Of a stretch of 64,000 nucleotides of DNA, positions 672 through 60,536 are shown piece after piece. Position 1 is the stretch's first letter; each line of letters opens with the position of its first letter. This stretch comes from Phycisphaerales bacterium (GTDB taxonomy: Bacteria; Planctomycetota; Phycisphaerae; Phycisphaerales; UBA1924), in the NCBI GenBank assembly GCA_020853815.1, contig JADYYE010000021.1:1-64000 (forward strand), in the 5' to 3' direction. Made by a program: the position numbers and the translations under genes. Below the pieces are notes generated by a model. It searched no databases. It was not told the origin of the DNA and saw nothing but the letters and a program-made list of their open reading frames with translations.

Positions 672-756
672 TAGGCACTTGGCAAGAGGCACTTGGCACC
701 AGGAAAGGCGGCAGACAGTGGGTTTTCCCAAGTGCCTGTTGCCCAATGCCCAGTGC
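672..756 (-). repeat. GGCACTN-type repeat tract with an inverted arm
   Basis: Ten bases after the groES stop, the minus strand reads GGGCACTGGGCATTGGGCA and then AGGCACTTGG. Nearer the next gene the same unit appears in the opposite orientation. The arms AGGCACTTGG (687-696) and CCAAGTGCCT (728-737) are perfectly complementary and could form a 10-bp stem in the groES-groEL message. The tract belongs to the same unit family as those at 25917-26008 and 49843-49934. Confidence 0.75.
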
Positions 757-765
757 CCGTTCCGA

Positions 766-25916: not shown

Positions 25917-26008
25917 CCTGACTTCGCTTCTTCCTGACTTCTGACTTCCTGACTCCGTGACTTCTTCTTCTCTTCCCTAGTGCCCAGTGCCCAGTGCCTA
26001 GTGCCTTC
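25917..26008 (-). repeat. Composite repeat module after the DUF1800 gene
   Basis: On the minus strand, starting at the stop: GGCACTAGGCACTGGGCACT, then GGGCACTAGGGAAGAGAAG, AAGTCACGGAGTCAGGAAG and further GTCAGGAAG-like units. The order and spacing of these blocks match the module at 49843-49934 behind an unrelated gene. Confidence 0.88.
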
Positions 26009-27448
26009 CTAAAACCACTGATACTCCGCCGAAGAGATCGCCAGCCCCAGAGCCTCGGCCATCACGCCGTTGCTCGGGTTGTTCGCGCGCAGATAGTCCT
26101 CCAAGAGCACGCGCGTCAGCATCGGCATCGTCCCGCCGAACACGATCGAGTCGATGCGATCGGCGATCTGCTCGACGTTCCGCGCCCCGAACATGAGCCG
26201 CGGCACGTCCACCTCCACGCCCGTCATCTCGTTGTACATCAGCGACGCCGCAAACCGCCACCGCCACAAGAGCGCCCCAGCCCAGTATGACGTGCGATCC
26301 GGGTACCCATCCGGCGTTTCCCACTTCAGCGGCATGTGCCCTGCCTGGGCGAGCTTCAATCGCAGCTGGCCCGCGTGCGGCATGGTCGCCTCGAGCGCCC
26401 GCGCCACGCCCACCGCAAAGTGAAAAGGCCGCTTGAACTTCGGCCTGGCGTGCGTCTGGCACCGCGTGGAGAGCGCCTCGCGCACCATCGCGCGGATGTT
26501 TCCACCCGTCGCCGTGAACACGCCCGCGAGTCGATCGATCAGTGATTCGCCCGGCGCGGGCGTGATGAAATGACGCGCGACGCGCCCGGAGACATGGCGC
26601 GCCGTCGCGGGATGCGACGCCAGGATGTCGAGCACCGCCTCGCCGTCGCCGATCCCGCCGCCCGCGGGGATCACCCGCCCGAGCACGACCTTCTCGCCGT
26701 CGTCGTGCAACGCGGGATCGAACTTGAAGGTGAGCGCCGCCTCGCCCGCGTTGGCCAGGTGGTTCGTCCATCCGGTGAAGCACCGCGCCACCTCGCGCAC
26801 GTCCTGCTCCGTGTAGGGCCCGACGCCCGTCGTGTGCAGTTCCATCACCTCACGCGCGTAGTTCTCGTTCGGGGCGGCGGCGATGTTCTTGGCGTTGTCG
26901 AGGTAGAGCACCATCGCCGCGCTCCGCGCCGAGGCGCCGAGCAACGCGCGGAACGTCCCCATGGCGTTGGCCCTGATGACGTCGCGCTCGTCGACCGCGC
27001 GGGTCCAGGCCATCGTCAACCCGCTCGACGTGATGTTGAAGTGGTCGTTCCACATCTCGACCACGCGCTCGTAGAGCTGGCGCCGGCCCCGGATCGCCCG
27101 CGTGATCGTCACCTCCGCGTGCCCGATGTCGACCTCCTCGATCCAGCCGGCGACCATCTCCGCCGCCGACATATTCAGCCACGGATAGCGCGCCGCAAGC
27201 TCCGCCTCCAGCGCCGAATCGTCGATCGACTCAAAGGCAAGCTGCCACTCGAGATAGGCCTCGCGCCCCAACGCCGCCATCATCCCGCGATCCTGATAGG
27301 TCGCGCCAAACGTCATGCGCCGCAGCAGCCAAAGGTCCGATCCGAGTTCCGCGCCGCCGCCTCCCAATCGGGAATCACCGGGCAACGGATCGGCGGGTGG
27401 GAACGTACTCACATCGCACCCGGCGCGGCCATGCGCCGGCTCCAACAT
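26009..27448 (-). CDS. DUF1800-family protein
   Basis: A 479-residue protein with the DUF1800 layout: LLRRMTFGATYQDRGMMAAL near the N-terminus, ERVVEMWNDHFNIT, NENYAREVMELHTTGVGPYT, TEQDVREVARCFTGWT, and a C-terminal YLRANNPSNGVMAEALGLAI. The function is unknown; such proteins are usually encoded beside DUF1501 proteins, as here. No clear signal peptide is visible with this start; a GTG at about 27412 is an alternative and neither has a strong ribosome site. Confidence 0.9.
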   Translation of the reverse strand: MLEPAHGRAGCDVSTFPPADPLPGDSRLGGGGAELGSDLWLLRRMTFGATYQDRGMMAALGREAYLEWQLAFESIDDSALEAELAARYPWLNMSAAEMVAGWIEEVDIGHAEVTITRAIRGRRQLYERVVEMWNDHFNITSSGLTMAWTRAVDERDVIRANAMGTFRALLGASARSAAMVLYLDNAKNIAAAPNENYAREVMELHTTGVGPYTEQDVREVARCFTGWTNHLANAGEAALTFKFDPALHDDGEKVVLGRVIPAGGGIGDGEAVLDILASHPATARHVSGRVARHFITPAPGESLIDRLAGVFTATGGNIRAMVREALSTRCQTHARPKFKRPFHFAVGVARALEATMPHAGQLRLKLAQAGHMPLKWETPDGYPDRTSYWAGALLWRWRFAASLMYNEMTGVEVDVPRLMFGARNVEQIADRIDSIVFGGTMPMLTRVLLEDYLRANNPSNGVMAEALGLAISSAEYQWF

Positions 27449-38183: not shown

Positions 38184-38217
38184 GGGCCGTTCCCACCACG
38201 GGAGCGGCCCGTTTCAT
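38184..38217 (+). terminator. Rho-independent terminator of the PEP-CTERM gene
   Basis: GGGCCGTTCCC, loop ACCAC, GGGAGCGGCCC, then TTTCATTT; an 11-bp stem with one wobble. Confidence 0.85.
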
Positions 38218-38258
38218 TTCCACCTTCGTCTCTCCCCGCCCCATTGTTTCGCCCCCGC

Positions 38259-38293
38259 TTACAACCGCTTCCGTGCGCACCAAAGTGTCCGTC
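38259..38293 (+). repeat. Direct repeat, copy 1
   Basis: It shares GTGCGCACCA and GTGTCCGTC with copy 2 at 38417-38451; about 29 of 35 positions match by eye. Confidence 0.7.
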
Positions 38294-38416
38294 TTTTTCC
38301 CCTCTTTTCAGATTCCCGAAAAAAATCTTCGCGCGCCTTCTCCCCGCGCGCAACCACTTGCCCGGTCTGCATTTCTGCCATTGCCCATTCCCCAGTGCCC
38401 TCCGGCTAGTGCCCAC

Positions 38417-38451
38417 TTACCACCGCCCCGGTGCGCACCAGAGTGTCCGTC
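38417..38451 (+). repeat. Direct repeat, copy 2
   Basis: The second copy of the 35-base repeat, 158 bases downstream of the first, within the same gap. Confidence 0.7.
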
Positions 38452-49242: not shown

Positions 49243-49857
49243 TTGAACACCCAAACCCAATCCCAATCTTCGACGAACTCTTCCGGTACGCCCGGCGTGC
49301 CGGGCACGGGAGGCACCTTGGCCGAACCGCCGCGTCGTTCGCCGTATTCAGCCCGCGCGAAGATCGGGCGGGTGCTGTGGTCGCTGGCGTCGCTCCTGGT
49401 TTTCAAGCCCTCGCCGTCGGGTTGGAACGGGCTCCGGCGCGGGTTGTTGAGAATGTTCGGGGCCAAGGTCGGAGCGGGCGTCGCGATGCATCCCTCGGTG
49501 TACGTCGAGGTTCCGTGGAACCTGTCGATCGGCGCGAACGTCCGCGTGTGCGAGCGCGCGATCCTGTACTGCCTCGGGCCGGTGTCGATCGGCGACGGCA
49601 CGCTGGTCGGGCCGTTTGTGCATATCTGCGCCGGCACGCATGACTACACGAGCCCGTCGTTCACGCTGCTGCGTTCGCCCATCACGATCGGGGCGCGGTG
49701 CGCGCTCATGACGGCGTCGTTTGTCGCGCCGGGGGTGGTGGTCGCGGACGGCACGGTGCTCCTGCCACGCGCGGGGCTGTTCAAGAACTCCGAACCCGAC
49801 TCGACGTACGAAGGCAATCCGGCGAAGGCGGTTGAGAAGAAAGGCACTGGGCACTAG
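49243..49857 (+). CDS. Hexapeptide acyltransferase (WcaF/LbH type), copy 1
   Basis: A 204-residue protein. After a low-complexity N-terminus, the left-handed beta-helix pattern begins: RGLLRMFGAKVGAGVAMHPS, VPWNLSIGANVRVCERAILY, GPFVHICAGTHDYTSPSF (catalytic His in GTHDY) and PITIGARCALMTAS. It transfers acetyl or similar groups to sugars. The start is a TTG with no close ribosome site and is uncertain. The stop codon lies inside a GGCACTN repeat tract, which writes the last residues (KKGTGH). Confidence 0.85.
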   Translation: MNTQTQSQSSTNSSGTPGVPGTGGTLAEPPRRSPYSARAKIGRVLWSLASLLVFKPSPSGWNGLRRGLLRMFGAKVGAGVAMHPSVYVEVPWNLSIGANVRVCERAILYCLGPVSIGDGTLVGPFVHICAGTHDYTSPSFTLLRSPITIGARCALMTASFVAPGVVVADGTVLLPRAGLFKNSEPDSTYEGNPAKAVEKKGTGH

Positions 49858-49934
49858 GCACTTGGCACTAGGGAAGACAAGAAGAGACGAAGAGACGGAG
49901 TGAAGAGAAGCCACGGAGTCAGGAAGGGAAGAAG
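49843..49934 (+). repeat. Composite repeat module after acyltransferase 1
   Basis: Order: GGCACTGGGCACTAGGCACT, TGGCACTAGGGAAGACAAG, AAGAGACGAAGAGACGGAG, then AAGCCACGGAGTCAGGAAG. It starts inside the coding region and resembles the minus-strand module at 25917-26008. A TTCGGCATTCGTGATTGGGC unit follows (49955-49979). Confidence 0.88.
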
Positions 49935-50030
49935 CAGCGGAGTGTGGAGCGGCGTTCGGCATTCGTGATTGGGCATTCGAAAAGGAACGCAGGGACGGCG
50001 AGTCGGGCGTGCTCGTGAGCGATTGTTGAG

Positions 50031-60379: not shown

Positions 60380-60470
60380 TGGTGCGCGGATGCGTGCGAC
60401 GCCACGTCGCGCAACGCCGACGATGACTCCGTGCGCGATGCGAACATGCGGGCCATCGCCCCTGCCCCGC

Positions 60471-60526
60471 TGTCTCGCTGTTTCGCTGTTTCGCTGTTTC
60501 GCTGTTTCGCTGTTTCGCTGTTTCGC
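60471..60526 (-). repeat. GCGAAACA octamer array after the transporter gene
   Basis: On the minus strand, ten bases after the stop, six exact GCGAAACA units (60479-60526) and one GCGAGACA (60471-60478) run head to tail. This is the longest perfect array in the window. Confidence 0.92.
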
Positions 60527-60536
60527 TGTCCCCTTC

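Follow-up and report, generated by a model that had tools for sequence, protein, structure and literature searches.

The two composite repeat modules of the window (the whole stretch of 64,000 nucleotides of the Phycisphaerales bacterium contig JADYYE010000021.1 analysed here) belong to a family of heptamer arrays, built of the unit GGCACTD (D = A, G or T), that recur across the genome at gene edges. These arrays, most often four units long, obey a common law of placement, are gained and lost at orthologous sites and include one privately copied pair, whilst matching inverted arrays form the ends of loci encoding IVP proteins (PF05635) in several phyla. We lean slightly towards reading the window module as a non-coding member of an IVS/IVP-type family of small insertions with four-heptamer ends.

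The first module lies on the plus strand at the 3' edge of a hexapeptide-repeat acyltransferase gene (acyltransferase 1; 49243–49857, plus strand, PF00132 match). Its (GGCACTD)4 array (49843–49869) reads GGCACTGGGCACTAGGCACTTGGCACT, then AGGGAAGACAAGAAG..., and is followed at 49870–49934 by the purine-rich linker AGGGAAGA... and then by octamer-type repeats (AGACGAAG / CACGGAGT). The second module is on the minus strand, where a (GGCACTD)4 array (26005–25979; GGCACTAGGCACTGGGCACTGGGCACT, then AGGGAAGAGAAGAAGAAGTCACGGAGTCAGGAAG) begins 3 nt past the stop codon of a DUF1800 gene (26009–27448, minus strand; PF08811, E 2.5e-107) and is backed at 25917–25978 by the linker AGGGAAGAGAAGAAGAAG and octamer-type repeats GTCACGGA/AGTCAGGA. 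Both are built alike: four GGCACTD units are followed by AGGGAAGA, then by a linker GAAGAAG and then by GTCACGGA/AGACGAAG repeats that resemble octamers. The earlier note had described such a shared composite module from the letters alone, and this was borne out by a local alignment score of 79 over approximately 84 nt, compared to a mean of 19 (sd 3.3, maximum 38) for 2000 dinucleotide-preserving shuffles. The acyltransferase 1 array straddles the end of its gene: the boundary of its second unit gives the TAG stop codon (49855–49857), and the last codons (GTGH*) of a protein ending ...KKGTGH are array-derived. Since the orthologues in the congeners G254 and G292 end ...AGTTGA or AGCTGA and have no array, whilst that of G296 has six degenerate units, the array now provides the stop codon. 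Deeper in the same spacer, at 49950–49979 on the plus strand, lies another heptamer array, one belonging to the GGCATTC/GGGATTG class, which is also present in G254 and G296. Neither window site has a second, inverted array or a PF05635 (IVP) gene, an Rfam search of the window gave tRNA only, no DNA match traced the module to a plasmid or a phage, and a literature search for the exact module sequence returned nothing relevant.

The genome (G000) is a fragmented MAG, 94% complete, whose 329 contigs total 4.5 Mb. Further copies are many: a three-unit query (GGCACTNGGCACTNGGCACT) with up to two mismatches gave 171 overlapping matches in the 4.5 Mb, against six for the reversed control. The block order on which the earlier note had argued against simple slippage recurs at many sites, and slippage alone is indeed insufficient, being ruled out by the block order, the four-unit mode and the existence of empty sites. 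Array statistics rest on 1.38 Mb (1.377 Mb), sampled mostly because it contained matches, in which genes were called with our own hexamer-score finder. This portion holds 65 GGCACTD arrays of at least two units, 13 of them inside a separate dispersed repeat of approximately 170 bp (all 13 with four units); the remaining 52 have four units in 27 cases and three in 10. Within arrays the seventh position of the unit is A in 69, G in 46 and T in 37 cases and never C. Generalised heptamer arrays number 118, compared to 13 for the reversed pattern, and among the intergenic short tandem repeats of G000 the predominant periods are 7 (95) and 8 (98). An example of the latter in the window is an octamer array at 60468–60529 (CGCTGTTT, 7.8 units, 98% matches), the AAACAGCG family being common in G000 spacers.

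Other repeats were encountered alongside. A dispersed repeat of approximately 13 copies occurs in the window at about 38200–38440 on the minus strand, downstream of the IF-3 gene, and consists of two copies of GGACGGACACTTTGGTGCGCACGGAGGCGGTGRTAAG spaced by approximately 165 bp, between which lie a slot for four heptamers and the conserved GCGCGAAGATTTTTTTCGGGAATCTGGAAAG. It is also found at loci L033, L046, L049, L055, L056, L057, L058, L060, L063, L067, L069 and L070, and the copy at L056 (contig C83) has an unrelated sequence in the array slot. Contigs C79 (L035, near 6413) and C101 (L051, near 5120) share a MITE-like element of approximately 105 bp that has terminal inverted repeats GGAACCTCTGA...TCAGAGGTTCC, contains a hairpin and is inserted in or beside GGCAATN heptamers.

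Placement was assessed for the 37 arrays of at least three units that lay outside the other dispersed repeat and had both neighbouring genes known. Reading away from the gene edge behind them, 33 of the 37 start within 40 nt of that edge (null mean 9.2, maximum 19, n = 2000), which is nearer than the edge ahead in 34. The earlier note had the module keeping its orientation to an upstream stop codon; this holds for the 24 of these 33 arrays that follow a same-strand stop in the sense direction, but the other nine lie antisense before a start codon, so that orientation is kept to the nearest gene edge rather than to the stop codon as such. Divergent spacers are depleted in arrays (2 of 41 versus 174 of 756, p = 0.003), and the octamer arrays of G000 obey the same law, with 76 of 92 nearer the edge behind (p = 2e-10). 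No broad base-composition skew of the spacers was found that could have caused the orientation. Arrays also occur inside operons (livH-livM and livG-livF), which argues against strong termination, and a role as transcription terminator was rejected on this ground. By eye, several arrays (contigs C79, C214, C327, C130 and C253; S04, S07, S09, S24 and S29) stand behind dockerin-like C-termini (DFNGDGFVNGDDYDAFA...DAGC).

Gain, loss and copying were followed at orthologous gene edges in three congeners, G296 (the closest), G254 and G292; the names liv, isc, dcd and nrdJ used here were read from the protein sequences and are not database-assigned. At least three units were retained at 5 of 25 orthologous sites in G296, 4 of 29 in G254 and 5 of 23 in G292, and unit number turns over between orthologous sites (for example 11 units in G000 versus four in G292). 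The DUF1800 heptamer array is absent from all three congeners; in its place are octamers or a short spacer. Its module has a single private near-copy, in the livG-livF spacer of contig C329, and G000 contains the 22-nt tail GGGAAGAGAAGAAGAAGTCACG at exactly two places (contigs C48 and C329), whilst all three congeners lack it. The livG-livF spacer of G296 holds only TAGAAGAAGTCACGAAGTCACGAAGTC, an octamer array without a heptamer block, and the G000-only block on C329 adjoins an octamer array also present in G296. In the livH-livM spacer of G000, which is divided between contigs C327 and C329 by a CAGAAGA array, there is an insertion of at least 550 bp that is bounded by inverted (GGCACTN)4 arrays and absent from G296 and G254. 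No target-site duplication was visible at livH-livM or livG-livF, where the flanks are repeat-rich, and neither excision nor a constant target duplication was seen among the sites compared. The gain of modules at orthologous sites in this lineage is supported, as is the copying of a module as a unit between the DUF1800 gene and livG-livF. The earlier note's proposal of copying as a unit is therefore upheld by the DUF1800/livG-livF pair and not by the pair from which it was argued, the two window copies being ordinary, distant family members and not a recent donor and its copy. Separately, the iscS-iscU spacer (L065, 14974–15071; orthologues L267, L286 and L302) carries an inverted four-unit pair whose variable letters are nearly unchanged and which, unlike most sites, is kept in all four congeners; this pair is a candidate functional hairpin.

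Spacers with arrays at both ends number five in the 1.38 Mb when units of the form GGSRNBN are allowed, and all five pairs face inward. Inverted arrays on both sides occur at window 674–757, livH-livM, iscS-iscU, C85 and C76. The window pair lies in a spacer between two minus-strand genes, with its left arm (GGCAAGAGGCACTTGGCACC) at 674–701 on the plus strand and its right arm at 730–757 on the minus strand (AAGTGCCTGTTGCCCAATGCCCAGTGCC on the plus strand). Co-occurrence of both arms was significant for generalised heptamers (p = 0.015) but not for GGCACTN alone (p = 0.12). One of the five spacers, on C76, encodes a PF05635 protein (23S_rRNA_IVP, E 2e-35) with a weak match to bAvd. Around the IVP genes of other genomes of the family, period-7 arrays were found within 150 bp on both sides at 15 of 30 loci and on one side at 11, many of the 30 sharing three orthologous sites and therefore not being independent insertions, compared to 5 of 1004 control genes and 1 of 333 random windows; arrays on both sides were never of period 5, 6 or 9, and at three loci were of period 8. 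The repeat unit varies from locus to locus (GGCACTN, GGCATCN, GGCAATN, TCAGTTG, GGGAGCN, GAGTCGC and others), and the two ends of one IVP locus are each other's best match in 17 of 19 cases (permutation p <= 5e-5). In the dcd-nrdJ spacer, the nine spacers bearing an IVP gene are 444–972 nt long, all nine with inverted tandem-repeat ends of heptamers or octamers (scores 32–59), whilst nine of the 20 IVP-free spacers are only 39–135 nt and all 12 that are long enough to be scored reach 22 or less. IVP elements adjoin ribonucleotide reductase genes in two unrelated phyla, at dcd-nrdJ (L357–L386) and at nrdB-nrdA (L341). Sites beside ribonucleotide reductase genes are also favoured by inteins and introns.

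The resemblance of IVP loci to the window modules extends to block order. The IVP gene of G000 on contig C91 is preceded by GAA-GGCAACAGGCACTGGGCACTTGGCATT-GGGGGAGAAGAAGGG, in which the GGCAACAGGCACTGGGCACTTGGCATT slot is (GGCANYN)4, the order seen in the window modules, and ends of approximately four tandem heptamers or octamers after GAAG-type purines occur at IVP loci and window sites alike. Across 100 family genomes, array count correlates with IVP count (rho 0.40, p = 3e-5, phylogenetically uncorrected; approximately 0.26 after accounting for genome size and Y1_Tnp). No transposase, for which the earlier note had suggested a search, is implied, since copy number of RVT_1 does not track the arrays (rho 0.03) and that of Y1_Tnp does so weakly (rho 0.33, falling to 0.13 once genome size and IVP are allowed for). 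The orientation law had also prompted the idea of a telomerase-like reverse transcriptase that extends 3' ends with repeats; this was rejected for the same lack of correlation and because RVT_1 is missing from array-rich genomes such as G254, G257 and G287. In the literature searched, no paper connected IVP genes with heptamer ends other than in rRNA.

In other phyla, IVP genes with inverted matching arrays were found on plasmids of Nostoc (nrdB-nrdA), Calothrix, Geminocystis, Pseudanabaena, Anabaena (between cas6 and cas4), Azospirillum, Riemerella and Gemmatirosa (the last with octamers); several other plasmid IVP genes examined lacked such arrays. Conversely, none of 80 loci from other phyla with four-unit GGCACTN arrays contained an IVP-like ORF, with a profile that recovered 48 of 48 positive controls, and an inverted partner was present for 46 of 113 arrays at such loci, mostly in the opposite arrangement. 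The Gemmatimonadota MAG AVDCRST_MAG68 (L098, L121, L087, L102 and L150) has ORF-less GGCACTN inverted pairs 40–130 bp apart, likewise in the opposite arrangement (AGTGCC...GGCACT).

In the reading that we favour, the ends of the elements would be arrays of approximately four heptamers, sometimes octamers, and full-length members would carry one PF05635 four-helix-bundle gene (23S_rRNA_IVP / S23p) between two inverted arrays, occupying spacers beside stop and start codons, operon-internal spacers included. The arrays are read as IVS/IVP ends because the Coxiella IVS combines S23p, tandem heptamers and 28-bp inverted repeats, and four heptamers make 28 bp. The window copies would then be solo ends or ORF-less, mostly one-ended derivatives, each copied whole between sites, and for at least one copy the shared octamer tail was apparently the route of entry. 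Solo arrays may descend from IVP elements or be mobilised by them, with the IVP presumably acting on the arrays, and movement could proceed by RNase III-type RNA processing, by recombination or through an RNA intermediate. To our knowledge, the IVP has no known nuclease, transposase or other catalytic domain. More generally, and with slightly more doubt than belief on our part, mobile elements with locus-specific terminal inverted arrays of four heptamers or octamers could form a broad class that carries IVP (S23p) genes as cargo and perhaps uses them as helpers. ORF-less copies with two ends and solo ends of this class would then account for many of the four-unit heptamer repeats that lack an explanation in Planctomycetota, Cyanobacteria, Gemmatimonadota and others, both window modules included.

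Several observations speak against the IVP-element reading: most G000 arrays are single, both window sites lack an inverted partner and an IVP gene, the 80 array loci of other phyla gave no IVP-like ORF, the correlation with IVP counts is uncorrected for phylogeny, and neither target duplication nor excision was seen. The main rival is that solo arrays may be an older repeat class which IVP elements use. Simple-sequence repeats would, in that account, have arisen by slippage independently of any IVP, spread by recombination via shared units and been adopted by IVP elements as ends. The turnover of unit number and sequence at orthologous sites, the nesting of several kinds of repeat within spacers, the octamer array shared with G296 beside the private C329 block and the great majority of array loci without an IVP all fit it; left unexplained are the tight four-unit mode, the law of placement and orientation, the inverted matching ends and a unit conserved at six positions with one free position that is never C (A69 G46 T37 C0), and we regard it as rather unlikely. 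Similarity by chance between low-complexity spacers, for which the simple composition of the units might speak, is refuted by the shuffle maximum of 38 against a score of 79 and by the 118 heptamer arrays against 13 reversed ones, and is given practically no weight.

Selection for an RNA or DNA signal at gene edges, such as a G-quadruplex, a protein-binding 3'UTR site or a transcription boundary, could converge on four units, and both the identical placement and four-unit preference reported for other heptamers (PMC4692102) and the near-constancy of the iscS-iscU pair in all four congeners are in its favour. We nonetheless consider it improbable as a general account: G3 tracts arise in GGCACTD only where D = G, which excludes a three-tier quadruplex as the shared cause, the operon-internal arrays at livH-livM and livG-livF speak against strong termination, and most array sites are not conserved among the congeners. 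Mobilisation of a MITE-like repeat by a classical transposase (IS or RAYT/Y1 type) is more improbable still, in spite of the inverted ends of approximately 28 bp, the bounded livH-livM insertion and some correlation with Y1_Tnp. The association of RAYT/Y1 with the arrays is weak and not specific, most of it being lost after genome size and IVP are accounted for, with seven to nine Y1 genes in array-free genomes and one in the array-bearing G254 and G294; moreover, no constant target duplication was found and the end sequences differ at every locus.

Inverted four-unit arrays as the ends of IVP loci bring together matters so far treated apart. Accounts of four-unit heptamers in Xanthomonas, Nostoc and Geobacter, and of related heptamers in Beggiatoaceae, have appeared independently of one another and with differing guesses at function, whilst the PF05635 four-helix-bundle genes, although widespread, have no known function; such ends join both problems. 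The number four would receive a structural account, an end of approximately 28 bp, in place of a quadruplex, and the origin of four-unit bacterial repeats becomes testable.

Amongst known systems, MITEs and REP elements are likewise small, non-coding, dispersed and intergenic, with inverted ends in some copies, but the elements described here end in tandem arrays of a locus-specific unit and not in one conserved palindrome, and neither a target duplication nor a matching transposase was found for the arrays. Short dispersed intergenic heptamer arrays also occur as GGGACCG four-heptamer elements in Geobacter metallireducens (PMC2700814) and as TAACTGA repeats, mostly before start codons, in Beggiatoaceae (PMC4679880); the arrays here resemble them, in the four-unit length too in the case of Geobacter, although the units differ, and the parts of the two reports searched yielded no link to IVP genes. 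Closer are the GGGNATC and GGGGA(T/C)T heptamers of Xanthomonas and Nostoc, whose four-unit preference was put down to G-quadruplexes and for which no association with mobile elements was reported (Rehm et al., 2015; PMC4692102). These share with GGCACTD a period of 7, one free position, the preference for four units, an intergenic location and variability between relatives, as well as a position within 50 bp of a stop codon (sense) or start codon (antisense) and rarity between divergent genes; the GGCACTD unit differs, however, in its sequence and in having no G3 tracts except where D = G, and here there are also inverted pairs around IVP genes and bounded insertions. The 23S rRNA IVS of Coxiella burnetii has an S23p (PF05635) ORF, 28-bp terminal inverted repeats and 5' tandem heptamers GACAGAT (PMC4990558), and elements here similarly combine a PF05635 ORF, inverted ends of approximately 28 bp and tandem heptamers. 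Whilst the Coxiella IVS lies within 23S rRNA, the elements described here occupy the spacers of protein-coding genes, and the window copies are ORF-less with a single array.
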